Of a DNA stretch of 64,000 nt, positions 3-17,885 are shown one piece after another. The notes beneath the pieces were generated by a model, which worked only from the letters and a program-made list of their open reading frames with translations, was not told the DNA's origin and searched no databases. Positions within the stretch are counted from its first letter, which is position 1. Each line of letters starts with the position of its first letter. Origin of the DNA: Rubrobacter aplysinae (lineage in GTDB: Bacteria > Actinomycetota > Rubrobacteria > Rubrobacterales > Rubrobacteraceae). Both the position numbers and the translations under genes were made by a program. The stretch covers positions 186,001-250,000 of the forward strand of contig NZ_LEKH01000002.1 in assembly GCF_001029505.1 (NCBI RefSeq), written 5' to 3'.

Positions 3-1310
3 CAGGCCCGGGTAAAAGAGATTCTGACCCTGGGCCGTAAGAGCTACGGCGACGAGTTCGTGGCTCTAAAGGACATTGATCTGGAGATAGAGCCGGGGAC
101 CACGCTGGGCATCCTGGGCCGCAATGGGGCCGGAAAGAGCACGCTGCTAAAGATAGTCTCCGGTGTCCTGACCCCGACCGAGGGCAGCGTCGAGGTAAAC
201 GGGCGGCTGGTGCTGTTACAGCTCGGGGCCGGGTTCAACAACGAGTTCACGGGCCGGGAGAACGTGCTGCTCAATGGCCTGATCCTGGGCATAGGGCGGG
301 AAGAGATGCTCCGGCGCTTCGACGAGATCGAGGAGTTCGCAGACCTCGGGAAGTTCATGGACCGTCCGGTAAAGACGTACTCCAGCGGGATGCGCGCCCG
401 GCTCGGGTTCGCCGTGGCGGTAAACGTCGAGCCGGACATACTGATCCTGGACGAGACTCTTTCCGTCGGGGATGCGATCTTCAAGCAGGTCGGCCTGCAG
501 AAGATGCGGAACCTCAGAGACCGGGGCACGACCATCCTCTTCGTCTCCCACAGCATGGGCATGGTTAGGAACTTCTGCACCGAGGCCGTCCTGCTGCACC
601 AGGGCGAGATCGTGGCCCGGGGCGGCACCAGCGAGACCGCCGACCGCTACCAGGCCCTACTCTCCGGCAGGGAGGCGGGTAACCGGGCCAAGAAGGAGGG
701 CTCCGGCTGGGACTATGGCGTCGAGCTGGACGAGGAGTCCGAGGTACTCGGCGAAGAGGAACCGGACTTCAAGGAGGACCCAGAGCTTTCCCGAGGGGCG
801 AGGGCCAGCCTGCGACACGGCACGGGCGAGGGACGCATCGCTGGGGTGGAGGTGCTGGACCGGGAAGGGGAACCCGTAGACGAGATCCGGGCCGGGGAGA
901 GCGTTACCGTCCGGGCGCACCTGCAGTACGAGGAGACGTTCAGCGGCAGCGTGTTCGGCATCACGCTCAGGAACAGGACCGGGCTCGACATCTTCACCAC
1001 GAACACGAAGCAGGAAGGGGTCCCGCTGCGCAAGCGGGAGCGGGGCGAGCGGGTGATCGTTGACTTCGTCTTCGAGGTTCCCCTGCAACCCGGCCCGTAC
1101 AGTGTAACCGCCTCCCTATCCCCATCCGGCGGCGACAACGTGTATCTGGACTGGGTAGACGTGGCGGCGGCGTTCAAGATCTCCCGCCCCGAAAGGGGGA
1201 CTATAAAGGGCCTGGTACATCTGGCGACACAGGCCAGGCTCCACAGCCCGGACAGTGAAGAGGAGCCCGGGAACGTGGAGCACTCCAGCCGGTCGGCCCA
1301 GAGCACCTAG
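3..1310 (+). CDS. ABC transporter ATPase of Wzt type with C-terminal glycan-binding domain (5'-truncated)
   Basis: Powers export of a finished polysaccharide through a two-component ABC exporter. The frame stays open to the left edge of the window, so the gene starts upstream; the first GTG at 60 is internal. The nucleotide-binding domain shows Walker A GRNGAGKST, signature YSSGM and Walker B ILILDET. About 190 residues follow from position 660, beginning with a charged linker and then a beta-rich region (GEGRIAGVEVLDREGEPV onward) typical of Wzt C-terminal domains, which bind the terminal modification of the chain. The membrane partner (Wzm) is not in the window. It lies head to head at its 3' end with the convergent sugar dehydrogenase. 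The family call is firm; the glycan is unknown. Confidence 0.92.
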   Translation, partial: QARVKEILTLGRKSYGDEFVALKDIDLEIEPGTTLGILGRNGAGKSTLLKIVSGVLTPTEGSVEVNGRLVLLQLGAGFNNEFTGRENVLLNGLILGIGREEMLRRFDEIEEFADLGKFMDRPVKTYSSGMRARLGFAVAVNVEPDILILDETLSVGDAIFKQVGLQKMRNLRDRGTTILFVSHSMGMVRNFCTEAVLLHQGEIVARGGTSETADRYQALLSGREAGNRAKKEGSGWDYGVELDEESEVLGEEEPDFKEDPELSRGARASLRHGTGEGRIAGVEVLDREGEPVDEIRAGESVTVRAHLQYEETFSGSVFGITLRNRTGLDIFTTNTKQEGVPLRKRERGERVIVDFVFEVPLQPGPYSVTASLSPSGGDNVYLDWVDVAAAFKISRPERGTIKGLVHLATQARLHSPDSEEEPGNVEHSSRSAQST

Positions 1311-2707: not shown

Positions 2708-3736
2708 CTACCTGTCCAACAACCGACCGCGTAGGCTATCCAGTCTTTTGAGAAGCCTGGAGCCCGTGGAGCCTCTCATCTCCTTTACCTGAATCTCAAG
2801 GCTTCTCAAGCGAGCCTCAAGATACTGAGTCTTATCTTGCTCCTTTTCGAGGCTCTGCTCCAGCGTGACGATCCGCTGCTTGAGCTGCTGCGGGTTCGGG
2901 CCCCTGGGAGCCGCTTTCTGTGAGGTGGTCTGCTCCGTGCCCGCCTCCGTTTTACCCTGATGTTCCTGTTGGGCGGGCAGCGTGCTCCTGAAAGGCAACT
3001 CCGGATCGTCCCACTGGCGCTGGATGCGGTCCAGCACCCAGGCTTCCGTCTCGTGGTCCTTGTTCTCCTGGATGTAGCGCGCTTGCTCCTGGCTCAGGGG
3101 CTCCTTCCGCCGACGGCGGTTCTCGAAGGAGCGTGACATCTTCTCCCAGGCTCGCCGGACCTCATCATCGAACTCGATCTCCAGAAACCTGGACACGAGC
3201 GGTATGCAGGACTCGCTGCGGGAAAAGAAATCATGGTAGCTGATGATGAGCAGCTCGGGATCTCGCGGCCCCTCCACGAACTGCCGGGTCTTCTTCATGG
3301 CGATGTTCCAGTCCCGTACCCCTAGCTCGAAGCCGTTCTTACCCCCGAGCCAGGCATCCTCCGGGTTCTTGGACCTCGCATCGTACGACTCCGCAACCTC
3401 CTCTATAGGCCGGTAGAGCACTATAAAGCGGGAGCCAGGATTGTTCTTATGCAGCTTCCCCAGGTTTCTGACGTAGGACGGGGTCTTATCACCGATCCAA
3501 GCTAGCTCGTCCGGGCTCTTACCGGCGAGCAGCTCCTCGTGATAGCTTTTGGGCAGGTTCGTCTCGCCCTCTCTGTAGTCCAGTATCCTATCGAAGCTGA
3601 ATAGATCCGGTGTGATCTCGGGCTGCAGGAACTTATAACGCTCACGGCAGATCAAGAGCCTTGGATGCTGATTGAGATAGTTGGCGAACGCCGTCGTACC
3701 GCTCCGGCCCGGTCCCGCGACGAATAAGATGTTCAA
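2708..3736 (-). CDS. sulfotransferase family protein with C-terminal coiled coil
   Basis: Predicted PAPS-dependent sulfotransferase. The 5'-phosphosulfate loop reads GPGRSGTTAF at about residues 8-17, and a 3'-phosphate-binding segment reads FIVLYRPIEEVAESY. The last 63 residues are a long charged helix with heptad-like spacing, so this enzyme carries its coiled coil at the C-terminus, unlike its neighbours. The start is chosen at TTG 3736, giving MNILFVAGPGRSG, because GGAGG sits 6 bases upstream. A longer frame to 3946 encodes an unlikely cysteine-rich leader. It is divergent from the methyltransferase at 4050. The acceptor is probably the exported glycan (inferred from context). Confidence 0.82.
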   Translation of the reverse strand: MNILFVAGPGRSGTTAFANYLNQHPRLLICRERYKFLQPEITPDLFSFDRILDYREGETNLPKSYHEELLAGKSPDELAWIGDKTPSYVRNLGKLHKNNPGSRFIVLYRPIEEVAESYDARSKNPEDAWLGGKNGFELGVRDWNIAMKKTRQFVEGPRDPELLIISYHDFFSRSESCIPLVSRFLEIEFDDEVRRAWEKMSRSFENRRRRKEPLSQEQARYIQENKDHETEAWVLDRIQRQWDDPELPFRSTLPAQQEHQGKTEAGTEQTTSQKAAPRGPNPQQLKQRIVTLEQSLEKEQDKTQYLEARLRSLEIQVKEMRGSTGSRLLKRLDSLRGRLLDR

Positions 3737-4049
3737 GTCAGCCTCCAAAAGTCTCCGTGCGGTAACCTGAAGCGTATCATCCTTCTCCCGCTCTCCGTCT
3801 ACTGGTAGAACAAGAAGACATACCGCGTAACATGCACCAGCCCGGTAGTCTAACCAATCGCTCACGATACAGCATACGGAGGCCCCGGCCGACGAGTAGG
3901 TATCAGGAACCTGGTTACCCACAGAGTGTGACTCGCATGACTCCAAACACGGGCTTATGGCTCCGCAAGCCCGTTCGAGTCTTTTATGAACTTCTGTTAG
4001 CCTTTTTTGTGGTCGTTATTTGTCAGTGTGCTGTTTGTGGAGGGCTAAA
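3737..4049. promoter_or_regulatory. divergent intergenic region with a strong hairpin
   Basis: No convincing gene. It must hold promoters for the two divergent genes. A perfect 8-bp stem (ACGGGCTT with AAGCCCGT) with a 10-base loop lies at 3949-3974, followed within a few bases by TCTTTT on the + strand, so it resembles a weak terminator or attenuator ahead of the methyltransferase. The final 80 bases are clearly AT-richer than the surroundings. Confidence 0.45.
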
Positions 4050-4895
4050 ATGCCGGTGTTCGAGTGGAATAACGACGGACGCTTTGGAAAGTTGATCGCT
4101 TTCGCAAACGTGGAAGTGGGACTTTCAAAGACTGCCTCTTCTAGCTACATGCGCCTCGAAGCAGAGCGTAAGCGACGAGAAGCATCCGAGAGACGCGAAG
4201 CTACGTTAACCGCAGAGACTGGTAAGCTCAAATCCAGGGCAGAAGACGCAGAGAAAGTTCTCGCTGACACTAGAAAGCAACTTCAGAATTTCAAGCGCCA
4301 GCGTTTCCGGCTAGAGAGCCCTGATCCAGAACAGGATAGAGTTGAGACATTCAAGACCCTTCTTTCTCCTCTGCCAGAGGGCAGGTTGCTCGACTTGGGG
4401 TGCGGCCACGGTAAGTTCTCACTTGCCGCCGCGAGCCTGGGCTGGAAGGTTACGGCGGTTGACGCGAGAACCGAGAGGATGCCCACTAGTGCAGATCAGA
4501 ACATAGAGTGGCTCCAGGGCGACGTGCGGGAGTTCTCCTTTGACAAAGACGACTTCGACTGCATCTCTGTGCTCGGGCTACTCTACCATCTCGAACAGCC
4601 CGCCCAGATGGACCTCCTCAAAAGGTGCGCCGGTACGCTAACGATCCTCGACACCAGGGTCGGCCTCAACCAAGGGGCCACCGAGAACGGTTATAGAGGC
4701 GAGTACTACAAGGAGCCGGGTGAAACGGAGGAGGAACGCAAGACGAGGCTCGCTGCTTCCTGGGGTAACGCCCAATCATTTTGGCCCACGGAGGATTCGC
4801 TCATAAAGATGGCCCGCGACGCGGGCTTCTCGCTAGTAGCTCCGGTGAGGCCTCCACGCCGCAAGTATAGGACTTTCTACGTCTGCTATCCGTAA
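4050..4895 (+). CDS. class I SAM-dependent methyltransferase with shared N-terminal module and coiled coil
   Basis: Predicted small-molecule or glycan methyltransferase. Residues 1-27 (MPVFEW... to GLSK) match the N-termini of the enzymes at 7040, 7220 and 9507. Residues 33-85 form a charged coiled coil, and the SAM motif I LLDLGCGHGKF is at 113-123, followed by TAVDA for motif II. The start is ATG 4050 with GGAGGG 5 bases upstream; an upstream in-frame TTG at 4020 is rejected for lack of a ribosome site. It is followed 12 bases later by the propeller-like gene, so the two are probably co-transcribed. Methylation of a sugar in the exported glycan is inferred. Confidence 0.82.
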   Translation: MPVFEWNNDGRFGKLIAFANVEVGLSKTASSSYMRLEAERKRREASERREATLTAETGKLKSRAEDAEKVLADTRKQLQNFKRQRFRLESPDPEQDRVETFKTLLSPLPEGRLLDLGCGHGKFSLAAASLGWKVTAVDARTERMPTSADQNIEWLQGDVREFSFDKDDFDCISVLGLLYHLEQPAQMDLLKRCAGTLTILDTRVGLNQGATENGYRGEYYKEPGETEEERKTRLAASWGNAQSFWPTEDSLIKMARDAGFSLVAPVRPPRRKYRTFYVCYP

Positions 4896-4907
4896 AGCGG
4901 GGGAGCT

Positions 4908-5969
4908 GTGCGTATTTTGGAGACTGAAGTTCTCCACTTTAGACATCCTATAATGCGCGGCATGTTCGACACGGTGAAAGGAATCTTCCGAGACAAAGAC
5001 CAGAGTCTGCGGTCTTCTGACCGTGTGGTGGATGGTACGGTAGAAGCTCTACTGGTGAGCTTCTGCAACATGCCTCGCAGCCGCAGGTCGCCTATGGCGG
5101 TGGTGGACTTGCTAGATACCTCAGGCCCCTCGTATGAGTGGCTCAGCCTGGATGGCGCAAATACGAACAGTGGACCACCAAACCACGGCGGACGGGCGTT
5201 GTGCTGGTATGGTGATCTGGTCTGCGCTGCCTACAGGGCTAGCGCCAGGGTAGCGGAGTTCGCCCTTTTCGATCCCTATGATTGGACGGTCCTCTCGCGG
5301 ACCCCGGTCCCGGCGGGCGTACACTCCGCCACCTCCGATGGAAAGTGCATCTACTTCTCGGTAAGCCTAGAAGACTCCATATACAGAGCGGTGCCGGAGA
5401 GACGCGGCACCTGGAGGCTGGAGAGGCACTGGACGCTCCCTGGCTCCACGGGTAGGGAGGACGAGAGCCATATAAACGGCTTGGGCTTCGTAAGCGGCGA
5501 GTTGTGTGTGAGCGGTATAGGCCGCAAAAGAGGCCGGAGCTGGGCGGAGACCGGCAGAGGCTTCATCTACAATGCGGAGCGCGAGGAGGTGCTTGCCGAC
5601 GGGATACTCCACCCCCACTCGATGCTCTCCGAGGGCGAGAGAATCTGGACCTGCTCGTCCCAGACCAATCAGATTTTGTGCATGAACACGGCGGGCGAAG
5701 CTCAGAAGGAGTTTGACTTCCCAACCACCTACCTGCGCGGCTTCGCGCTGGATGATCATGAGCTGTTCGCAGGCTCCTCAAAGCGCCGGACTCATTCGCT
5801 CTCGACCGGGGAGGAGACTGGCGTCTCACGCAAGACGAGCGGGGAGTGTTCTCTGTGGAAGCGATACAAGAACGGCGTGACAGCCGAGAGAATCGTTGAC
5901 TTCTCCACACACAGGGATGAAATCTACGACCTGCTACCCATCCCATCGCCCTCGCGCAGGCCGCACTAG
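4908..5969 (+). CDS. probable beta-propeller protein, DUF4915/TIGR03032-like
   Basis: No catalytic motif is recognised. The 353-residue sequence has repeated short beta-rich blocks (GGRALCWYGDLVCAAY, HSATSDGKCIYFSV, HPHSMLSEGERIWTCSS, YLRGFALDDHELFAGSSKR). The His-Pro-His-Ser and LRGFA...LFAGSSKRR stretches resemble the DUF4915/TIGR03032 family, often found near glycan or TPR proteins. GTG 4908 follows a GGGGGAG ribosome site at an unusually short distance, so a later start such as ATG 4953 is possible. It is in an apparent operon with the upstream methyltransferase. Function is unknown; a sugar-binding or scaffold role is only a guess. Confidence 0.6.
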   Translation: MRILETEVLHFRHPIMRGMFDTVKGIFRDKDQSLRSSDRVVDGTVEALLVSFCNMPRSRRSPMAVVDLLDTSGPSYEWLSLDGANTNSGPPNHGGRALCWYGDLVCAAYRASARVAEFALFDPYDWTVLSRTPVPAGVHSATSDGKCIYFSVSLEDSIYRAVPERRGTWRLERHWTLPGSTGREDESHINGLGFVSGELCVSGIGRKRGRSWAETGRGFIYNAEREEVLADGILHPHSMLSEGERIWTCSSQTNQILCMNTAGEAQKEFDFPTTYLRGFALDDHELFAGSSKRRTHSLSTGEETGVSRKTSGECSLWKRYKNGVTAERIVDFSTHRDEIYDLLPIPSPSRRPH

Positions 5970-5990
5970 ACGAGGATAGAGCGGAACCGC

Positions 5991-7040
5991 CTAGCTAGTG
6001 GATCTCGTGTAGTACTCCTCGATCAGGGGGGCGGTTATCTTCTCCACCGTCTCCACCTGCTGCGGAGTGAGATCCTCCTTCCATCCCCCCGGGCTCGCCT
6101 TGCGGTAGAACTTGCCGTCGCCCTTCTTCTTGTCGGGTATGTTTTCCCAGGAGTGCTTCTTGACGACCTGCTCCAGCTTCCGCTCGTCCACGTACAGACC
6201 TAGCTCGGAGTAGATGCGCTTCATGGAGCCCAGGGCATCGGCGTTCAGCTCCTCGTACCTTACGAACGCCTTGCGTCCCTCGTGGGCGTCGTAGGCTTCC
6301 TTGGCCTTACTCACCTTCTCCTGATAGCGTCTGGCCGGGCCTTTTATGAACTCGTCCGGCTCGGTATCGGCCTTGCGCGCACTCCGCCAGTTGCCCTTGT
6401 TGTTCCTCTCGTACAGCCAGTTACCCTCTCTCGCTCCGTCGAGGGTAGAGGAGACGACGTCCCGGGGGTCCCGCACTATAAACAGCATCCGGCTCTCCGG
6501 CAAGGCTTCCATTAGCAGCGGCGCGCCCTCGGAGCCATTCGGTTCTTTTATAACGAGGTAGTCCTCAGGACCCATATCAGGGAACCTCGCCGCCGCGCCG
6601 TCGAGCACGAGGCTGCGGATGGCTTTCATCCACACGCCGCGATGCGTCTCGCTGAGGATGAAGTTCCGCGCCTTGAGCTGGTTTGGTCCCGAGTTGTTGT
6701 AGAAGTTGCCGACGAAGCTGCCGACACGAGGCTCTTCCCAGGCCCAGTGACCGGGCAGGTCACGCATCATGTCCCTGACCCAGGTGGTGCCGGATCGGCC
6801 GCTGCTGAAGATCCAGACGATGTTCTCCGGCCTCGGTCCTCCGCCAGGGCCTCCGCCCAGAGCAGGCTTTTCTCCGCCTCTTCTTGCCAGCTCCCCGCGA
6901 AGACGCTCGATCTCGCGGCTCTGATCCGGGCGGCTGTTTGCCCGGGGCGTTCCGTCGCGAGTCACCCCGGCTTCGAGCCTCAGGAAGGCCTTTAGATTTC
7001 TGGCTATCTCCATTGATGAGAAGTGCTCAAAGAGCGGCAT
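5991..7040 (-). CDS. sulfotransferase with shared N-terminal module
   Basis: Predicted PAPS-dependent sulfotransferase of 349 residues. The N-terminus MPLFEHFSSMEIARNLKAF continues to GVTR and matches three other enzymes in the locus. A short charged helix (about 44-55) and a glycine-rich hinge (GGGPGGGP) lead to the PAPS loop FSSGRSGTTWVRDMM at about 79-93. The 3'-phosphate motif FIVRDPRDVVSS lies at 187-198. ATG 7040 is chosen because GAGGT is 7 bases upstream and because it aligns the conserved module; the longer ATG at 7088 adds 16 unrelated residues. It is divergent from the sulfotransferase at 7220. The acceptor is unknown, most likely the surface glycan. Confidence 0.85.
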   Translation of the reverse strand: MPLFEHFSSMEIARNLKAFLRLEAGVTRDGTPRANSRPDQSREIERLRGELARRGGEKPALGGGPGGGPRPENIVWIFSSGRSGTTWVRDMMRDLPGHWAWEEPRVGSFVGNFYNNSGPNQLKARNFILSETHRGVWMKAIRSLVLDGAAARFPDMGPEDYLVIKEPNGSEGAPLLMEALPESRMLFIVRDPRDVVSSTLDGAREGNWLYERNNKGNWRSARKADTEPDEFIKGPARRYQEKVSKAKEAYDAHEGRKAFVRYEELNADALGSMKRIYSELGLYVDERKLEQVVKKHSWENIPDKKKGDGKFYRKASPGGWKEDLTPQQVETVEKITAPLIEEYYTRSTS

Positions 7041-7219
7041 CTTTTGTACCTCGCGCGTCGGTGCTGGTCTCTGTCGGTTGCAGCGCACATGTTACCTGAC
7101 GTTCCCGCTACCCGACACCAGGCACGATGGAGGTTCGGCTGGAGCTGAAAATCAGGGTCCGCCGCTGGTAGACTTTTGTGGCTCGCATGCCCCTTGAAAG
7201 CCCTTGAAAGGTTTTACAG

Positions 7220-8434
7220 ATGCCCGATTTCGAGACTTCAACTAGCCTTCAGCTCTTCCGTCAACTAAAGGTGTTTTTGAATCTGAGATTTGGCGCTACC
7301 CGGGAACAGCTCCCCCTCTTGGATAAAGACTCTCAAGGAAATATTGCAGAGGAGCAGGAGTTACAGCGAACCCGCGAGCGGCTGCGGGCCAAGGATGAGC
7401 AGATAAGGCATAGAGACCGTGAGATCAAGAGCCTGCGCGCCCAGCTCAAAGACGGAGGAAAAGCTGCATCCTCCTCCTTGGGCAACGACGGCTCCGAGGC
7501 TCCGGCGTTCTTCGTCGTTGGGAGGGGCAAGTCGGGTACCTCGTGGTTGATGAGGATCTTCGACGCCCACCCCGACATACTGTGCAGGGGCGAAGGCCGG
7601 TTCTTCGGACGCGACTGGAAAAGGGAGGATCTAAAAAGCGAGCAGGTAGGCGTCCCACCGAGATCGCTCTACGGCGCTATCCGGGAATCGGAGTATCTGA
7701 GATACTGGATCGAGCGCTCGGTGTGGAGCCGGGGAGGAGATCTGGAAGAGCACCTCGCCGGGGTCACCCGCGCGGCGGCGGATTACTTCCTGGAACAGAA
7801 GCTCGCGGAGTCCGGCAAGAGAATAGTCGGAGACAAGACACCGCTACTCACCCCGGAGTTCGTCCGGGATATTGCGGAAGTCTACCCAGATGCGAAGGTC
7901 GTCCACATAGTACGGGACGGTAGGGACGTTACCGTCTCGGCGGTACATCATCAGTGGAACAAAGCAACTGACCAGGGCGGCAGCCTCAGAATGACGCCGG
8001 ACGCTACCAGGAGACGTGAGGCGTATCGTCAGGACCCTAGCTCCACGAGCATGTTCTCCGAAGACAACCTGCGAGGCAGAGCCAGGGCTTGGAGAAACTT
8101 CGTGGGCCGCGCGTCGGAGGACGGTCCGGCCTTGCTAGGCGACAACTACACCGAGGTCCGCTACGAGGATCTGCTAGAGCGTCCCGAGGAAGAGACGAAG
8201 CGCCTGTTATCTCTCCTAGGAGCCAAATCCGACGAGAAAACCGTCAAGCAGTGCGTCGAAAAGACCAGCTTCGAGAAGCTATCCAGGGGCCGGAAGCCGG
8301 GCGAGGAAGACGCAACGTCGTTCTTCCGCAAGGGCATAGCCGGAGACTGGAAGAACGTCTTTACCGAAAGAGACCGTGAAATCTTCGAGGAGGAAGCCGG
8401 AGACCTGCTGACAAGGCTTGGTTATGAGAGATAG
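7220..8434 (+). CDS. sulfotransferase with shared N-terminal module and coiled coil
   Basis: A 404-residue predicted PAPS-dependent sulfotransferase. It begins MPDFETSTSLQLFRQLKVF and runs to GATRE, the same module as its neighbours. Residues 44-78 are a strongly charged coiled coil. The PAPS loop GRGKSGTSWL is at 101-110 and the 3'-phosphate motif VVHIVRDGRDVTVS at 227-240. A conserved HRKG-like tail appears as FFRKGIAGDWKN near the C-terminus, as in many bacterial sulfotransferases. A tandem 10-bp duplication (CCCTTGAAAG twice, 7191-7210) lies just before the start. The sulfotransferase call is firm, the acceptor unknown. Confidence 0.87.
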   Translation: MPDFETSTSLQLFRQLKVFLNLRFGATREQLPLLDKDSQGNIAEEQELQRTRERLRAKDEQIRHRDREIKSLRAQLKDGGKAASSSLGNDGSEAPAFFVVGRGKSGTSWLMRIFDAHPDILCRGEGRFFGRDWKREDLKSEQVGVPPRSLYGAIRESEYLRYWIERSVWSRGGDLEEHLAGVTRAAADYFLEQKLAESGKRIVGDKTPLLTPEFVRDIAEVYPDAKVVHIVRDGRDVTVSAVHHQWNKATDQGGSLRMTPDATRRREAYRQDPSSTSMFSEDNLRGRARAWRNFVGRASEDGPALLGDNYTEVRYEDLLERPEEETKRLLSLLGAKSDEKTVKQCVEKTSFEKLSRGRKPGEEDATSFFRKGIAGDWKNVFTERDREIFEEEAGDLLTRLGYER

Positions 8435-8472
8435 AGTAGTTAGCAAGTTGGCTCAGGGAAGAATTGCCGTGG

Positions 8473-9507
8473 CTAGTCTTTTCTAGAAACGTACACGCGG
8501 CGCTGGAAACCTACTCTTTCGGAGTCGAAGCCGTCTAGCTGGAACCCGTTCTCTTCCAGCAGCCCCTCGAAGAAGTCTTTATTGTAGCGGACGCAGTGTA
8601 GCGGCCCGCTCCAGTCTTTGCCTTTGTAGTCCTCCGGGTTCTCGGTAACGTCCGGGACGCCCTCCTCCAGGAAAGCCGTGAGGAATACGCGACCTCCGGG
8701 TTGGAGTATTCTCTGAAACTCCTTCAGGTATGCTCTTACATCTTCCGTGAGCATGTGACTAAACACCGAGTAAACACAGATGATGTCGAACTCGCCGTCC
8801 TTGAAAGGGAGTTCAAACTTTTCGTCTATCGCCTCACCCTGTGGATTATAGCGAGTATTCTCGGCATTTACGTGGAGGAACTGGAAGTTCGGGCTGCGAG
8901 TGGTTACATAGTGCTGGCCCCAACGGATTGACCTTTCGCTGACGTCCATGCCGCGATACTCCCGGATCTCACCGACATTCTCGAGTATCCCTATTGCGAG
9001 CCTTCCAGGTCCCGATCCGACATCAAGCAGCGCACTCTCTGCTGTCAGGCCGAGATTCCGCACCAGATGATCCGCCTCCTTCTTGGCAGAAGAGAGGTAG
9101 AACTCGTCTTCTTGGAGGTTCTTGCCGCAGGGCCGGATGTTTTTGGGCGGTAGTGCGATACCGTTGTACAGTATCCTGCCAGGTTGGCCGGGGGCCTTTT
9201 TTGAGCCTGCAGTGTTCTCCTTGCCAGACTTTTCCTTACCAGAGGTCTTCAGTTGCTCTATGCGCTGATCCCGCTGCTTCAGTTGCTCCTTGAGGCGTTG
9301 GAGACGTTGATCCCGCTCTGCGACCTGCTGTTTGAGTCGCTGGAGCCTCTGGTCCCGCTCTGCAATCTGCTGTTTGAGAGTTTGGTTGTGCAAAAGGGTA
9401 TCATCCGGGTTTCGTACCTCGCCGCGAGTAATACCAGTTCGCAGACTCAGAAATGCTTTTAATCCGCGGGCTATGTTGAATATCGTGTGGGTATCGTAAG
9501 TAGGCAT
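8473..9507 (-). CDS. class I SAM-dependent methyltransferase with shared N-terminal module and repeated coiled coil
   Basis: A 344-residue predicted methyltransferase. Residues 1-29 (MPTYDTHTIFNIARGLKAF to GITRG) match the N-terminal module of the neighbouring sulfotransferases. Residues 44-85 are three nearly identical 14-residue coiled-coil units (LKQQIAERDQRLQR type), followed by a lysine/glycine-rich hinge. The SAM loop LLDVGSGPGRLA starts near 160, with motif II MDVSE and a motif IV-like FDIICVYSVF. It is convergent with the sulfotransferase at 7220. It probably modifies the same glycan; the exact acceptor cannot be read from sequence. Confidence 0.84.
   Translation of the reverse strand: MPTYDTHTIFNIARGLKAFLSLRTGITRGEVRNPDDTLLHNQTLKQQIAERDQRLQRLKQQVAERDQRLQRLKEQLKQRDQRIEQLKTSGKEKSGKENTAGSKKAPGQPGRILYNGIALPPKNIRPCGKNLQEDEFYLSSAKKEADHLVRNLGLTAESALLDVGSGPGRLAIGILENVGEIREYRGMDVSERSIRWGQHYVTTRSPNFQFLHVNAENTRYNPQGEAIDEKFELPFKDGEFDIICVYSVFSHMLTEDVRAYLKEFQRILQPGGRVFLTAFLEEGVPDVTENPEDYKGKDWSGPLHCVRYNKDFFEGLLEENGFQLDGFDSERVGFQRRVYVSRKD
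9253..9378 (-). repeat. three tandem 42-bp units encoding a coiled coil
   Basis: Units 9337-9378, 9295-9336 and 9253-9294 each encode 14 residues: LKQQIAERDQRLQR, LKQQVAERDQRLQR and LKEQLKQRDQRIEQ. Two heptads per unit means copies can be gained or lost without breaking the coiled-coil register, so the rod length can vary in whole steps. Confidence 0.9.
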
Positions 9508-10719: not shown

Positions 10720-12279
10720 CTACGGGCAGTTTGTGGTTCCATCTCTGGGGTCCGCCACGCAATCGTCCCGTCCGGCTCCGCCGTTTATGAAGTCGTTACC
10801 TCGTACTCCGTCCTTGCTTCTCAGGTAATCGCTACCTCCTTTACCAATGTGACGGTCGCTGCCAGCTCTACCGGCAAGGTTGTCGTTGTCGGCCCCGCCT
10901 ACAAGCCGGTCGTCGCCGGAGCCACCCCGGAGGACATCCTCTCCTTGACGCCCATAGAGCACGTCATCTCCTACACTCCCCAGGAGTTTGTCGCCGCCGG
11001 TGCCGCCGCCAAGATTGTCTGTACCAGCGCCGCCGAAGAGCCGATCAGCTCCTGCACCGCCCCTTAGAGTGTCGTTACCATCCTGACCATAAAGGTCATC
11101 ATCACCTTCTTGCCCAAAGATCCTGTCCCTATCGCTCCCACCACCGAGGTTGTCGTTGCCGAGACCGCCGACCACTCGATCTTCGCCTTCTTTACCCCGA
11201 AGGAGGTCGTTACCATCCTGACCGTATACCAGGTCGTCTCCATCCTGACCGACGACCTTGTCGTCTCCGTCGCCACCGCCGAGGTTGTCATCGCCGGTGC
11301 CGCCATCAAGCCGGTCTTCACCCGCATTGCCCCGGAGAGTGTCGTTACCGAAGCTACCCCTGATGGTGTCGTCTCCGCCAAGGCCCTTTATCCGGTCGAC
11401 GCCTTCAAGACCACAGATCACGTCGTCGCCAGTGGTTCCCTGGAGCCTCTCATCATATGGAGTCCCGACTACCGTACAGTCGGGCGCGGCCACCAGGACT
11501 TCGTCGGATCGGTTCTTGTCCTGTGACTGGGGAGGTCCCGAGCCACCTCCGGCACCAACCACGGCGTTTGCCTCTATCGAGGCGCCGACCGCATTCTCGA
11601 CGTTGGTGCCACTTCCGAAGGTAACCCTCACGCGCGTGGGGTCGCCCGTTAGTATGTTCGCGCTACTCACGTTGCTGCTCTCGGTGCTGTCCGCAAAGTA
11701 AATGTTGAAGCCGCTGGTGTCGCCTATCTCGGTGATCTCCTCGTCGAACTCGTAGACCAGGAAGTTACCGACCTCGTTACCCCGGACGACCTGGACCAGA
11801 TCCGGCTTGCCACTGTTTCCCTGATTGCTAATGTCCGCCGACTCAAGAGGGTTTACTTTGCCGTCCTGCGAGCTAGCAAGCTGTACCGTACCCGGATCGA
11901 CGTAGCCGCGGGCGAGCTTGCTGGGGTCTACCTTGCTAGACTCACTCGACTTGTCCGTAAAAGCGATGGTAATCGTCTCAGTGCCGTCCCCGGCCAACGG
12001 CTCTCCGATACCGTCGAGCTCCTGATTCTGGAACTCAGAGGCGTCTATAGGGACTAGTTGGAAGTTTCCGGGTCCGCCCTGTAAGTCGGCGGGCTGATCA
12101 AAGGTAAAGTCTACAGCAGTGTCGGTAAACCCGTCTCCGTTTACGTCCCCGACGGTGCGGAAGTTGTCTACTTTCAAAAGATCCGGGGCGGTAGTAGGTC
12201 CATTCTGTGCCAGAGCCGGAGTTGCAGCTAGTAAGGTCGTTGCGAATAAAGCCAACGTCACTAATGTCAACTTTCCCAA
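10720..12279 (-). CDS. secreted RTX-type calcium-binding repeat protein
   Basis: A 519-residue exported protein. TTG 12279 (GGAGG 7 bases upstream) gives MGKLTLVTLALFATTLLAA and a cleavage site after PALA, a typical Sec signal peptide; an earlier start at 12321 would place the ribosome site inside the gene. Residues about 26-260 are two beta-rich, acidic regions of no recognised family (one begins NFRTVGDVNGDGFTD, with an EF-like acidic loop). Residues about 276-506 are GGxGxDxLxG-type nonapeptides that bind calcium in a beta-roll, arranged in 45-residue super-units. A cysteine pair lies at the C-terminus (DDCVADPRDGTTNC). With a Sec signal and no type I secretion tail evident, it is better read as a surface or matrix protein than a toxin. 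Confidence 0.85.
   Translation of the reverse strand: MGKLTLVTLALFATTLLAATPALAQNGPTTAPDLLKVDNFRTVGDVNGDGFTDTAVDFTFDQPADLQGGPGNFQLVPIDASEFQNQELDGIGEPLAGDGTETITIAFTDKSSESSKVDPSKLARGYVDPGTVQLASSQDGKVNPLESADISNQGNSGKPDLVQVVRGNEVGNFLVYEFDEEITEIGDTSGFNIYFADSTESSNVSSANILTGDPTRVRVTFGSGTNVENAVGASIEANAVVGAGGGSGPPQSQDKNRSDEVLVAAPDCTVVGTPYDERLQGTTGDDVICGLEGVDRIKGLGGDDTIRGSFGNDTLRGNAGEDRLDGGTGDDNLGGGDGDDKVVGQDGDDLVYGQDGNDLLRGKEGEDRVVGGLGNDNLGGGSDRDRIFGQEGDDDLYGQDGNDTLRGGAGADRLFGGAGTDNLGGGTGGDKLLGSVGDDVLYGRQGEDVLRGGSGDDRLVGGADNDNLAGRAGSDRHIGKGGSDYLRSKDGVRGNDFINGGAGRDDCVADPRDGTTNCP
10825..11337 (-). repeat. 135-bp higher-order repeats in the RTX region
   Basis: Three complete 135-bp units (11203-11337, 11068-11202, 10933-11067) and a partial fourth to about 10825. 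Each encodes five nonapeptides in fixed order, opening LRGxxGxDR, then xxGGxGxDN, LGGGxxxDx, xxGQxGDDx and xYGQDGND (the last unit diverges). The order within units shows duplication of whole 45-residue blocks, not of single nonapeptides. Confidence 0.88.
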
Positions 12280-12554
12280 CTTCAAACCTCCTGTTATACG
12301 GGGAACATCTACTTCCAGCAATTCGGAAGCCGGGCAGTCTTAAACTTATAATTTCGACTCGACTTAACAGGCTAGCCAGAGCAACACATCTTGCTAGTTC
12401 CAGTAAAGAGAGTACCATCAAATGACATATCCAAAACCACGCTAGATGTATGGTCTATGAGCGCGGCATTATCATGGGATCACGTAGAATCTGAGGTATG
12501 GAGCAGATCGGGCCTTCGTCTACTCGTGCGAGCCGTGCTACGGGCTGATCCGGA

Positions 12555-13520
12555 TTACCCTCTTGGCTTGTAACCAAGCTCCCGCATAAGCAAACCGGCC
12601 GCTGCCTCTACAAGCTCTACTTGCTCTTCTGTAAGATCTTCCTCCCAGCCGCCAGCTATACCTTTGCGGTGGAACTTTCCCGTACCTTTCTGATCCTCGC
12701 GCAATGCTTCCCAAGAGGTTGCCTGTATCGCCGCCCGCCTTTCACTCTCGTCATTCGGCAACTTCAGCGTCTCCTGCACGAACGCTAGAGACTCTTCGGG
12801 GCGCTCTCGAAGTCTCTCGTAGCTCATCGTTACCTTGGGACCCGGATGTGCCTGGTATGCTTCCTTCGCCGCCGAGATACTGTGAACCCAGCTCTCTGCC
12901 AGTGTTTTGGGATTCGCGCTCTCTGACCATTCAAACCTTTCGTATGGATACCAACTACCCGGCGCTGCGGCGTCCATAAGAGAGGCCACCACATCCCGCG
13001 GGTCACGGTAGAGGAAGATCGCCCGGCTCTCGGTGAAAGCTTCAAGCAAGAGCGATGCGCCGTCTCCGGCATTCGGCTCTTTTGCTATGAGGTAGTCTTC
13101 TGTATCTATCTCTGGCAGGTGAGTGGAGGTCACCTCTAAGAGCATACGCCTGTAGTGAGAGAGCCAGATATCCTTGTGTGAGTCTCCGAGAACGAACCGC
13201 TCGTTCGTCAAATATCCCTGATTCACGATGCTGGAACGCAGTCCGAGCACTCTTCCAAGCAAGGGCTCGCGCCACAGATGTCTCCCTTTAGGGTGAGAGA
13301 GCATTCTCCCGAGCCACGTGCTGCCCGTCCTCGGAGCTCCTAGAATCCACACTATCTTCCCTGGGTCCACACGTTCCGTGCCCTCTAGCCTGCGGATATG
13401 AGAATCGCGCTGCTGTAGGCTGACTCGTAGTGATTCGAGTTCCTGATCGAGTTCTCGGGCGCGGCACGCAGAACTGATCCTGAACTTTGCCTCTTCGAGA
13501 GCGTTCTTGAGCATCCTCAT
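12555..13520 (-). CDS. sulfotransferase with N-terminal coiled coil
   Basis: A 321-residue predicted PAPS-dependent sulfotransferase. Residues 1-47 are a charged helix, but without the MPxFE module of the genes at 4050-9507. The PAPS loop GAPRTGSTWLGRML is at 61-74 and the 3'-phosphate motif IFLYRDPRDVVASL follows near residue 170. The C-terminus has GKFHRKGIAGGWEEDLT, very like the sequence in the 5991-7040 enzyme, so the catalytic domains are paralogous. The start, ATG 13520 or the second ATG at 13514, lacks a strong ribosome site. Glycan sulfation is inferred from context. Confidence 0.84.
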   Translation of the reverse strand: MRMLKNALEEAKFRISSACRARELDQELESLRVSLQQRDSHIRRLEGTERVDPGKIVWILGAPRTGSTWLGRMLSHPKGRHLWREPLLGRVLGLRSSIVNQGYLTNERFVLGDSHKDIWLSHYRRMLLEVTSTHLPEIDTEDYLIAKEPNAGDGASLLLEAFTESRAIFLYRDPRDVVASLMDAAAPGSWYPYERFEWSESANPKTLAESWVHSISAAKEAYQAHPGPKVTMSYERLRERPEESLAFVQETLKLPNDESERRAAIQATSWEALREDQKGTGKFHRKGIAGGWEEDLTEEQVELVEAAAGLLMRELGYKPRG

Positions 13521-13757: not shown

Positions 13758-16700
13758 ATGTTGCAGTTCTGGGAAACGGTGATCGAACCCGCTCTTGAGG
13801 CTCTGGAGCCAGCCTCAGTGGTGGAGATTGGCTCGGACTACGGAGAGAACACCCGGAATATACTGGAATTTTGTCGACGGACCGGGGCGAGTCTTCATAC
13901 CATCGACCCATTTCCGAAATACGATGTCTCGGCCTGGCAGGAAGAATATGGGGACTCCTTTAGACCTTATCTCTCGCTGAGCCTCAATGCGCTACCCCAG
14001 ATAGACAAGATGGATGTCGTGCTCATAGACGGCGACCACAACTGGTATACGGTCTTTAACGAGCTGAAACTGATCGAGAAACGGTGCGCGGAGCTCTCCA
14101 GCCCTTTTCCACTAGTGATGCTACACGACATCGGCTGGCCCTACGGGCGTCGGGACCTCTACTATGACCCGGACAACATACCAGGTGCGTATCAGAAGCC
14201 TTACAAGAAAAAGGGTCTGAGCCCGGATTCGCGAGAGCTGCTCGAAGAAGGTGGCCTAAATCCGCACCTGTACCACGCAATCTATGAAAACGCCCTCCAG
14301 AACGGCGTTTTATCAGCATTAGAAGATTTTCTGGAAGATACGAATTTACAACTGGATCTCATCAAGATTCCTGGTCTCTATGGTCTGGGCATACTCACGT
14401 CGCTAGAAACCGAGCAGCAAAACGAGAGACTCAGAGAGCACCTGGAGAATTTGCGTTTAGCCGCTCCCGCCGCACGCCACCTAGAGGCTCTCGAGAAGTA
14501 TCGGATAGAGTCGCTGATCCATAGCCAAGAAGCCGAAACCAGGGCTAGAGAGATTAAAAAACAGCGCGAGGAGCTAAACCGGCGAGTCTCCAAATACGAG
14601 CAAGACTTCGAGGAGCTACAGCAGTCGCTGCAACATCAGAAGGAGCTCCTAGAATCCGAAAAGGCAAGGGCCGAGCAGGAACTTCGGGATGTGAGAGAAA
14701 CAGCGGCACAGCAATTAGCGCACCGCGACGAGTCGGTGGAGCAGCTAAAAGGCTGGATGGACTCTGTAAATGAGCTGATTCCGGCATTGCTCGGTTCCAG
14801 ACAATGGCGGGCCGGACGCCTGCTACACGAAGCGTATCGCAGAGTACGCCGTAAGCCCAGAGTCCCTACGGCCGCCACCCACCTGATCAGCACGCTGCAA
14901 CAGTACCGCTCCTGGAAAGGTGGTTCGTCCGCAAAGCCGGTAGAGATCCCGGAGAGCTCTCTGGAGACCAGAGCCCGGCACCTGATGGAGATCGCAGAGT
15001 CGAACAGGAGCATTCCGGGGACCCTGCGCTCTCTCCCAGGTAAGACCGTAGCCTCCGGCAAGCGCCGGGCGCGTCAGGAGTATAGAAGGCTAAAGCCCCG
15101 GATAGAAGAAGCTACGCTTGCAGAGAGGATACGCGAGAGGCTGGGACCGGCTCCCGGGCTGGCGAGCTGGCCCTTCGTGTCTGTGATTATCCTGAACCGG
15201 AATGGAAGCTCGTACCTGGAGAAGCTATTTTCTGGCCTCAAAGACAAGACGGACTACCCGGATTCGAGCCTTGAGGTCCTGGTTGTGGATAACGCTTCCA
15301 CCGACGGCTCGGTCGAGTTCGTCAAGTCCTTCGAGACTCCGTTCGCCGTGCGGGTGATCCAGAACTCCGAGAACGTCTCTTTCTCAGAAGGCAACAATCA
15401 GGGGGCGGAGATCGCATCCGGCAGTCTGCTCCTCTTCGCAAACAACGACATAGAGCCTTTCGAGCCGGGCTGGCTAAAGGAGATGGTGGCCCTGCAAACG
15501 AGGCAGGAGGCCGCGGCGGTGGGAGCCCGGCTCCTGTACCGGGGCGCCACCGAGCACGAAGTGTCCAGCGGCTACGCCGTGCAGCACCGGGGCGTGGGCT
15601 TCAGGAGAGAGGCCGGGGAGGAGTGGCACCGCAACCAAGGTATGGGCGAGGATGCCCTGGACGAGCGTCTGGGCGTGGACGAAGAGCGCCCGGCGGTCAC
15701 GGCCGCCTGCATGCTGGTAGAGCGTGGCGCGTTCGAGGGTGTCGGGGGCTTTACTGGAGGCTACCGTTACGGCAGCGAGGACGTGGACCTGTGCCTGAAG
15801 ATGCTGTCCGGGGGCCACGGCGTGATCTCCAGCGGCAGGGCCGTGCTCTTTCACGACGAGTCGCCCTCTCAGAAGGCGGCGGGCCGGGAGTTCATGCGGA
15901 TCAACCGCACCGGCAACCGGAAGATGTTCTGGGAACGCTGGGGGCCCGAGCTACACCGGAGATGCCGTCTGGACAGGCTCTCCGGCAGAGGCTTCTGGAG
16001 CGCGGAGGGTACGCCGCACGTGGCCCTGACGGTCACCAGCAAGGACCAGAGAGACGGCTACGGCGACTGGCACACCGCACACGAGATGGGCGGAGCCCTG
16101 GAAGAACTCGGCTGGCGGGTATCCTACGTGGAGCGCAAGGGCGAGCGGTGGTACTCTCTGCCGGACGACCTCGACTACCTGATGGTGCTTATAGACCTGT
16201 ACGACATCTCCCGGGTACCGGAGGGCGTGACGACGATAGCCTGGATCCGGAACTGGACCGAGCGCTGGCTCTCCCATCCCTGGTTCGAGCAGTACGACGT
16301 GGTGCTCGCATCCTCCGGCATCTCCAGGGACATGATCGAGGAACAGAGCGCGAAGAAGGTTGACGCCCTCTTCCCCATAGCCACCAACCCGAACCGCTTC
16401 ACGCCTGCCGCCCCGGAGCCGTCTTACGAGGCGGATTACGTTTTCACGGGCAACTTCTGGGGCGAGCTGCGGGGCATGGTAGACGCCGTGGAGGTCAGAG
16501 AGGGCGAGGCGTTCAAGATCTACGGCAAGGGCTGGGAGAACGTCCCGCAGGTCTCCCGCTACGCGGGGGGTACGCTCCCCTACGACGAGATGCCGAAGGT
16601 CTACTCCTCCTCGAAGCTCGTCATAGACGACACGGCCTCCCCCACGCTGCCGTACGGGGCCGTAAACTCCAGGGTCTTCGACGCCCTGGCCACGGGCACG

Positions 16701-17885
16701 CCGGTAGTAACCAACTGCGAGGCCGGAGCGCGGGAGCTCTTCGACGAGGACTTCCCGACCTACACGAACCGCCGGGAACTGCGGGAGCAGCTCGACCGGC
16801 TTTTAGGAGACGAGACGAGAAGACGGGAGCTTGGCGAACGCTACAAGAACAAGGTTCTCGCGGAACATACCTACGAGAAGAGGGCCGGGCAACTCACGGA
16901 GATATTGCGCACGAAGGCCGAGGCCTCTAGCTTCTGCATAAAGATCGGAGCCCCGAGCCGTAAAGAAGCCCCGAACTGGGGTGACACCCACTACGCGACG
17001 GCCATGCAGCGTCAGCTCGAGGCCGCCGGTCATCCCTGCACCATCCAGACCCTGGACGAGTGGGACTCTCTGGACGGTATGAGATACGACGTCGCCGTCC
17101 ACCTAAAGGGCCTCACCCCCTACAACACGAAACCCGGCCAGCTAAACGTCCTGTGGAATATAAGCCATCCCGAGAAGCTCGACGCCGGTGAGTGCGGCCT
17201 TTACGACGTGGTCTTTGTCGCCTCCGAGAGGTGGGCTAGCATACTAGAAGACCGGACGGATACCCCGGTCTATCCTCTACAGCAGGCCACGGACCCCCGC
17301 GTCTTCTACCCCGACCACGACGCCGCCCACGCCCGGGAGCTCGTATTCGTCGGGAACTCCCGGCGGGTGGAGCGCAGGATACTAAAGGACCTCCTGCCCA
17401 CGAACCGGGATCTCGCCGTGTGGGGTGGAGACTGGAAAGGTCTCATAGACGAGAGATACGTGGTCGGCGAGTACCTTCCAAACGAGGAGGTCAGGAAGGC
17501 CTACTCCTCCGCGGCGATAGTCTTGAACGACCACTGGGACGACATGCGCGAGTACGGCTTCGTCTCGAACCGCATCTACGACGCCCTGGCCTGCGGCGCG
17601 CTCGTGATCAGCGACCACCTGGAAGAGCTGGAGGAGCGTTTCGGGGAGGCTGTCGTGACCTATGAAGATGCCGGGCAACTAAAAGAGCTCGTGGACTACT
17701 ATCTCGACCACCCGGACGAGCGCAAGGCCCGCGGCGAGCGCGGCCGGCAGTTGGTGCTGGAGAAGCACACCTTCGGGCACAGGGTCCTGGAGATGATGAG
17801 CAGGCTCCCGGAGCCGGAGCGGGCCCGCCTCACACTCCCCGCGAGAGCCGCCAGCCGAGCGCCGGGCGCGGCGCTCCGGCGGTAA
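13758..17885 (+). CDS. multi-domain methyltransferase / coiled-coil / glycosyltransferase (1375 aa)
   Basis: One open frame with five parts. Residues about 1-215 are a Methyltransf_24-like domain (VVEIGSDYGENTRN, VVLIDGDHNW). About 225-335 is a coiled coil. About 470-740 is a GT2 domain (VSVIILNRNGSSYLEKLF, VVDNASTDGS, and FANNDIEP in the DxD place). About 753-1050 and 1060-1365 are two CgeB-like glycosyltransferase domains, each ending in the family's SRVFDALATGTPVV or NRIYDALACGALVI motif. ATG 13758 follows GAGGTAGG. It is followed at short spacing by two GT2 genes in the same direction. It probably builds and perhaps caps a glycan segment. Sugars and linkages are not predictable. Confidence 0.88.
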   Translation: MLQFWETVIEPALEALEPASVVEIGSDYGENTRNILEFCRRTGASLHTIDPFPKYDVSAWQEEYGDSFRPYLSLSLNALPQIDKMDVVLIDGDHNWYTVFNELKLIEKRCAELSSPFPLVMLHDIGWPYGRRDLYYDPDNIPGAYQKPYKKKGLSPDSRELLEEGGLNPHLYHAIYENALQNGVLSALEDFLEDTNLQLDLIKIPGLYGLGILTSLETEQQNERLREHLENLRLAAPAARHLEALEKYRIESLIHSQEAETRAREIKKQREELNRRVSKYEQDFEELQQSLQHQKELLESEKARAEQELRDVRETAAQQLAHRDESVEQLKGWMDSVNELIPALLGSRQWRAGRLLHEAYRRVRRKPRVPTAATHLISTLQQYRSWKGGSSAKPVEIPESSLETRARHLMEIAESNRSIPGTLRSLPGKTVASGKRRARQEYRRLKPRIEEATLAERIRERLGPAPGLASWPFVSVIILNRNGSSYLEKLFSGLKDKTDYPDSSLEVLVVDNASTDGSVEFVKSFETPFAVRVIQNSENVSFSEGNNQGAEIASGSLLLFANNDIEPFEPGWLKEMVALQTRQEAAAVGARLLYRGATEHEVSSGYAVQHRGVGFRREAGEEWHRNQGMGEDALDERLGVDEERPAVTAACMLVERGAFEGVGGFTGGYRYGSEDVDLCLKMLSGGHGVISSGRAVLFHDESPSQKAAGREFMRINRTGNRKMFWERWGPELHRRCRLDRLSGRGFWSAEGTPHVALTVTSKDQRDGYGDWHTAHEMGGALEELGWRVSYVERKGERWYSLPDDLDYLMVLIDLYDISRVPEGVTTIAWIRNWTERWLSHPWFEQYDVVLASSGISRDMIEEQSAKKVDALFPIATNPNRFTPAAPEPSYEADYVFTGNFWGELRGMVDAVEVREGEAFKIYGKGWENVPQVSRYAGGTLPYDEMPKVYSSSKLVIDDTASPTLPYGAVNSRVFDALATGTPVVTNCEAGARELFDEDFPTYTNRRELREQLDRLLGDETRRRELGERYKNKVLAEHTYEKRAGQLTEILRTKAEASSFCIKIGAPSRKEAPNWGDTHYATAMQRQLEAAGHPCTIQTLDEWDSLDGMRYDVAVHLKGLTPYNTKPGQLNVLWNISHPEKLDAGECGLYDVVFVASERWASILEDRTDTPVYPLQQATDPRVFYPDHDAAHARELVFVGNSRRVERRILKDLLPTNRDLAVWGGDWKGLIDERYVVGEYLPNEEVRKAYSSAAIVLNDHWDDMREYGFVSNRIYDALACGALVISDHLEELEERFGEAVVTYEDAGQLKELVDYYLDHPDERKARGERGRQLVLEKHTFGHRVLEMMSRLPEPERARLTLPARAASRAPGAALRR

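Follow-up and report, generated by a model that had tools for sequence, protein, structure and literature searches.

Four enzymes encoded in the 64,000-nucleotide stretch of DNA analysed here (the window) begin with a common tag of 27 or 28 residues, and the tag recurs on other glycan-tailoring enzymes across one bacterial class, which we take to be Rubrobacteria. It is conserved there as protein and absent from the sampled relatives, and is therefore probably an address for surface-glycan assembly. Our best reading, at a probability of roughly 55%, is that the tag is a putative docking peptide gathering glycan-tailoring enzymes.

The tag in the window

The first-pass annotation had noticed that the proteins starting at 4050 (+), 7040 (-), 7220 (+) and 9507 (-) begin alike. 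These starts are correct, with a Shine-Dalgarno-like site at each, and the common tag was confirmed by pairwise alignment, comparison with shuffled sequences and profile searches (Table 1). Gap-free alignments of the 7040, 7220 and 9507 tags have scores reached by 0 of 5,000 shuffled pairs. The 4050 tag diverges most and aligns more weakly (p = 0.001-0.02 against shuffles). The pattern written for this region, [RK]-x-L-x-[AV]-F, does not fit the 4050 tag literally, which has a residue deleted before L15. The same deletion was seen in 8 of 39 distinct tags, including those of the 4050-type methyltransferase family of other genomes, and it is via this family of its own (G001, G011, G014, G025, G027, G028 and G031) that the 4050 tag is linked.

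Pfam assigned the four proteins to two unrelated catalytic folds, as two sulfotransferases and two class I methyltransferases. Their residues 1-28 were without a Pfam or NCBIfam match, in agreement with the earlier remark that no named domain was known to have this pattern. Searching PDB sequences with the tag profile gave no significant match (best E 0.84 across 12 residues), and neither the family libraries searched nor the open-access literature, to which the paper searches were confined, yielded a description of the tag. The source genome holds exactly four tagged proteins, compared with eight Sulfotransfer_3 matches.

The tag comprises the first 27-29 residues (consensus MPVFRxRxxFEVARGIKAFLNLEAGVTRG, continuing as ExP) and stands at residue 1 in all members. 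Conservation spans 28 residues and is strongest at positions 14-28. P2 and G25 are invariant among the 39 distinct tags and F19, L20 and R28 nearly so, a pattern that would suit specific recognition. ATG, GTG or TTG followed by a proline codon opens 56 of 57 tagged open reading frames. A Shine-Dalgarno match of ≥ 4 bases precedes 54 of the 55 tag starts tested but 41% of internal start codons, and the tag is therefore the true N-terminus. The linker behind it is 12-132 residues long and in many members coiled-coil-like, with several having no coiled coil. AF2 models, computed from shallow window-only alignments and poor over the tag (pLDDT 25-41), gave a low-confidence helix at residues 9-23 or 6-24 that was not packed into a confident fold; in the 7040 protein helix 9-23 was apart from the catalytic domain.

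Table 1. Tags, enzymes and transporter genes of the glycan locus (window positions, except where a contig label is given; E values by profile or Pfam family).
Feature	Position	Strand	Evidence
Tag of methyltransferase, 27 residues, one-residue deletion class: MPVFEWNNDGRFGKLIAFANVEVGLSK	4050..4130	+	profile A2 E 2e-8
Tag of sulfotransferase, 28 residues: MPLFEHFSSMEIARNLKAFLRLEAGVTR	6957..7040	-	profile A2 E 5.6e-16
Tag of sulfotransferase, 28 residues: MPDFETSTSLQLFRQLKVFLNLRFGATR	7220..7303	+	profile A2 E 3.7e-12
Tag of methyltransferase, 28 residues: MPTYDTHTIFNIARGLKAFLSLRTGITR	9424..9507	-	profile A2 E 2e-14; sulfotransferase-only profile E 3.7e-13
Class I SAM methyltransferase, coiled-coil-like linker, catalytic domain from ~residue 105	4050..4895	+	Pfam Methyltransf_25 4e-13
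PAPS-type sulfotransferase, short linker, catalytic domain from ~residue 74	5991..7040	-	Pfam Sulfotransfer_3 2e-16
Sulfotransferase, charged coiled-coil-like linker	7220..8434	+	Pfam Sulfotransfer_3 1e-25
Class I SAM methyltransferase, long coiled-coil linker (residues 34-93)	8473..9507	-	Pfam Methyltransf_25 3e-15; AF2 helix 34-93
Wzt-type ATPase, C-terminal glycan-binding Wzt_C; ORF start upstream of the window	60..1310	+	Pfam Wzt_C 8e-31
Wzm, just before the window	L107:19095-19943		ABC2_membrane 1e-13
Untagged sulfotransferase, C-terminal coiled-coil-like tail; start codon uncertain	2708..3946	-	Sulfotransfer_3 7e-16
Untagged sulfotransferase, same locus	12555..13520	-	
Multidomain methyltransferase-GT2-GT1 glycosyltransferase	13758..17885	+	homologue adjoins tagged genes in G011

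Beside Wzm and the Wzt with its Wzt_C domain, the locus encodes nucleotide-sugar enzymes and glycosyltransferases. The 1375-residue protein at 13758-17885 combines a methyltransferase domain with a GT2 and a pair of GT1-like domains, and also has a coiled coil. Not every enzyme of the locus is tagged, as the sulfotransferases at 2708-3946 and 12555-13520 illustrate. In the middle of the locus, 10720-12321 (-) encodes a protein that looks secreted and carries numerous calcium-binding (RTX-like) repeats of the form GGxGxDxL; it has a possible relative in the G036 locus (L054:11553-12326). Directly 3' of the 4050 methyltransferase gene, 4908-5969 (+) encodes a DUF4915/TIGR03032-like protein.

Distribution, enzyme folds and glycan loci

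Searching a class set of 39 genomes (13 genera, one family) with a profile built from the window's four tags (A1), as the first-pass annotation had proposed, gave strong matches in sister genomes on glycan-modifying enzymes: about 50 further tags. Collecting these loci and iterating yielded a second profile (A2) and 57 tagged open reading frames. At E ≤ 0.05, A2 matched 21 of the 39 genomes, in all 13 genera. The search extended over the phylum Actinomycetota, where ~357 other genomes contained no convincing tag; five marginal matches there (E 0.001-0.009) equalled the number expected by chance and were dropped. Within the genomes searched, the tag is thus confined to a single class, and a search of plasmids gave nothing. 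A match in a response-regulator-like open reading frame (L101) was judged false, and a scan of genome contigs with the 9507 protein returned generic methyltransferases only. Within the class the tag is uneven: in genus g10, seven genomes are tag-free despite 3-21 sulfotransferases each, against 7 and 6 tags in the remaining two. Draft completeness may be a partial cause of this contrast, although G021 and G024 are nearly complete. G014, G027 and G028 each encode a single tagged protein.

BLAST linkage, together with Pfam searches of representatives, placed three folds behind the tag: P-loop sulfotransferases, class I methyltransferases and polysaccharide pyruvyl transferases. The 41 sulfotransferases came from three subclades. 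The 13 methyltransferases (8 4050-like, 3 9507-like, 1 TylF-like and 1 probable, the last with no Pfam match) represent at least three families plus the probable one, and there were two pyruvyl transferases and one truncated remnant. In G011, four tagged genes are grouped in one 10-kb stretch around a homologue of the 13758-17885 glycosyltransferase: two encode window-type methyltransferases, one the probable methyltransferase and one a pyruvyl transferase. On L055, a 71-residue open reading frame (1298-1735, -) joins a tag to a sulfotransferase-like C-terminal tail, with an apparent internal deletion.

The placement of tags in glycan loci was borne out when their proximity to Wzt genes was scored: 21 of 55 tags lay ≤ 25 kb from a Wzt_C gene, where about one would be expected if tags were evenly spread. 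Tags within this distance were found in the window and in seven further genomes, and 34 of the 55 had another tag ≤ 15 kb away. For many tags away from Wzt the contigs were too short to tell, and about half of the tags were not placeable near Wzt. A comparison of gene content between the loci of 13 tagged and 10 untagged genomes revealed no gene that occurred throughout the tagged loci and was missing from every untagged one. Only the cluster of the 2708-3946-type untagged sulfotransferase stood out, in 5 of the 13 tagged and 0 of the 10 untagged loci, a signal too weak for it to be claimed as a partner. The 13758 multidomain glycosyltransferase was rejected as a universal partner, being present in just 5 of the 39 genomes.

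Homology and selection

A sulfotransferase-only profile recognised the 9507-type methyltransferase tags of the window and G001 (E 3e-13 to 4e-13), the pyruvyl transferase tags (1e-6 and 4e-8) and the TylF tag (2e-4). It reached just E 1.2 for the 9507-type tag of G011 and missed the window 4050 tag itself; 4050-family tags were found in G028 and G001 (1.9e-5 and 3.7e-5). The reciprocal profile of non-sulfotransferase tags recovered 34 of 41 sulfotransferase tags, and 20 column-shuffled decoy profiles found zero tags. Shuffles, profile searches and decoys together clearly favour a specific tag over a segment that turns up in random contexts or aligns no better than shuffled sequence.

Tag identity was ~0.39 at catalytic identities of 0.3-0.4 and of 0.1-0.2 alike, and linker identity was lower (0.26). 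The tag is decoupled from the catalytic domains. At residues common to tags on unrelated catalytic domains the same codon was used at a frequency of 0.396, compared with 0.407 expected from codon usage. Synonymous codons have thus been randomised while residues were kept, and therefore selection acts on the peptide. The DNA upstream of the tags is not common either (mean 0.27 versus 0.26 shuffled). Taken with the codon randomisation, this indicates that the tag peptide is old and kept by selection rather than recently copied DNA. The shared tag observed in the window is confirmed and is larger than the window alone shows: the third fold, the further methyltransferase families, the class restriction and the protein-level selection extend the first reading.

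On the sulfotransferase tree the tag requires 15 changes, at least 6 of them forced by well-supported branches; it comes and goes repeatedly there. In contrast, two other conserved N-termini are each confined to one group of related sulfotransferases. One N-terminus of this enzyme type, LERLRDYRxxNERFDRLVxAVMSNE, marks a single clade (L110, L111, L053, L054, L042, L117 and L124). Sulfotransferases lacking the full tag were also seen in genomes without it (L120:6845-8038, L115:5906-7024, L116:16862-17614 and L119:13296-14639). That of L120 has kept the first half of the tag (VPVFGSRKALEVLREAK) and differs in the second, which looks like decay or replacement of the tag.

Docking and its alternatives

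The first-pass annotation had offered a docking or a membrane-contact address. For the latter, the tag would be an amphipathic helix that keeps the enzymes at the inner leaflet, the site at which the lipid-linked glycan is extended. Hydrophobic positions 10, 12, 16, 19 and 20 with R14 and K17 interspersed are compatible with such a helix, as is the AF2 helix at ~6-24, and WbdD associates with the membrane in this way (PMC11231755). The numbers speak against it: the mean hydrophobic moment of residues 8-25 (0.27) barely exceeds that of shuffled sequence (0.22), 2% of tags lie above the 95th percentile of this moment, and the mean HeliQuest-type discriminant, 0.59, falls short of the 0.68 customarily required for lipid binding. 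The fixed P2, G25 and R28 are also more specific than lipid binding requires. We therefore consider membrane contact unlikely. We rate slightly lower the idea that the tag is a self-association cap, with tags and coiled-coil linkers building mixed oligomers of tailoring enzymes and no third partner. Many members do have coiled-coil-like linkers behind the tag, and genomes often hold several clustered tags. Within a genome, the tags of different enzyme families also resemble one another slightly more than chance predicts, at a borderline permutation p = 0.04 driven by two genomes. However, linkers vary from 12 to 132 residues, several dispense with the coiled coil, and three genomes encode a single tagged protein each.

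Two readings give the tag no role in location. Control of stability or translation, through an N-terminal proline exposed after removal of methionine or through a degron, would agree with the M-P start of 56 of 57 tags, GTG and TTG starts included. It is very improbable given 28 conserved residues, constrained most at 14-28, and the limitation of the tag to glycan-tailoring enzymes. A neutral 5' cassette, that is, a start region spread among neighbouring genes by recombination, would suit the patchy distribution on the sulfotransferase tree and the occurrence of tagged genes in the same neighbourhoods. Kept amino acids with randomised synonymous codons, unshared upstream DNA and a tag better conserved than the linker disfavour this reading and leave it with hardly any probability.

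Docking is favoured because of the sequence specificity of the tag, its N-terminal position, the variable linker and the spread over unrelated enzymes. It is the most likely of these readings, in which we infer both protein binding and decoration before export. Counted against it are the low AF2 confidence in the tag, the five tags of G011, all > 1 Mb from Wzt_C, and the single methyltransferases of G014, G027 and G028, which lie outside obvious glycan loci. Homologous sulfotransferases also presumably function without a tag. As a docking peptide, the tag would form a short helix (~residues 8-22) followed by the conserved E-A-G-hydrophobic-T-R-G turn, and the variable, often coiled-coil linker would join it to whichever catalytic domain comes next. 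Sulfotransferases, methyltransferases and pyruvyl transferases would thereby meet at a single shared partner within the cytoplasmic glycan-making machine. The nascent chain would be decorated with sulfate, methyl and pyruvate ahead of export by a Wzm/Wzt-type ABC transporter.

A further, more tentative proposal, which we hold somewhat less probable than its negation, is that the tag is a class-wide sorting peptide defining membership of a glycan-decorating assembly, such that any enzyme acquiring it would be recruited to the same nascent-glycan machine. If so, surface-glycan chemistry would be modular and evolvable through tag swapping. Accounts of how ABC-exported bacterial glycans are modified usually take the enzymes one at a time; an address transferable across unrelated folds would mean that decoration is the work of an assembly into which enzymes are recruited. 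The tag would then be a sequence handle for new tailoring enzymes, possibly for artificial ones.

In polyketide synthases and peptide synthetases, the order of partner proteins is set by docking domains, short helical or coiled-coil segments at the N-terminus that act pairwise between consecutive modules. The tag differs in being single and common to all its enzymes, and a cognate tail was not found. Encapsulation peptides of bacterial microcompartments resemble it as short helical addresses fused by linkers to different enzymes (PMC12339742). However, the catalytic domains behind the tag are glycan-tailoring rather than metabolosome enzymes, and a microcompartment shell protein (PF00936) was found in 0 of the 39 class genomes, with matches in control genomes.

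The nearest described counterpart is the ABC-transporter-dependent O-antigen pathway of E. coli O9a, where the coiled coil and C-terminal region of WbdD recruit WbdA to the membrane (PMC3482155, PMC11231755). As there, a non-catalytic helical region would co-locate glycan enzymes at a Wzm/Wzt pathway, a coiled-coil spacer would separate the catalytic from the docking part, and tags in the window and seven further genomes lie near a Wzt_C gene, with Wzm directly upstream in L107. The docking region of WbdD, in contrast, is C-terminal and belongs to one chain-terminating enzyme, whereas the tag is short, N-terminal and recurrent on many unrelated enzymes, including sulfotransferases. The multidomain protein at 13758-17885 is reminiscent of the Klebsiella O7 multidomain ORF6 (PMC11231755).
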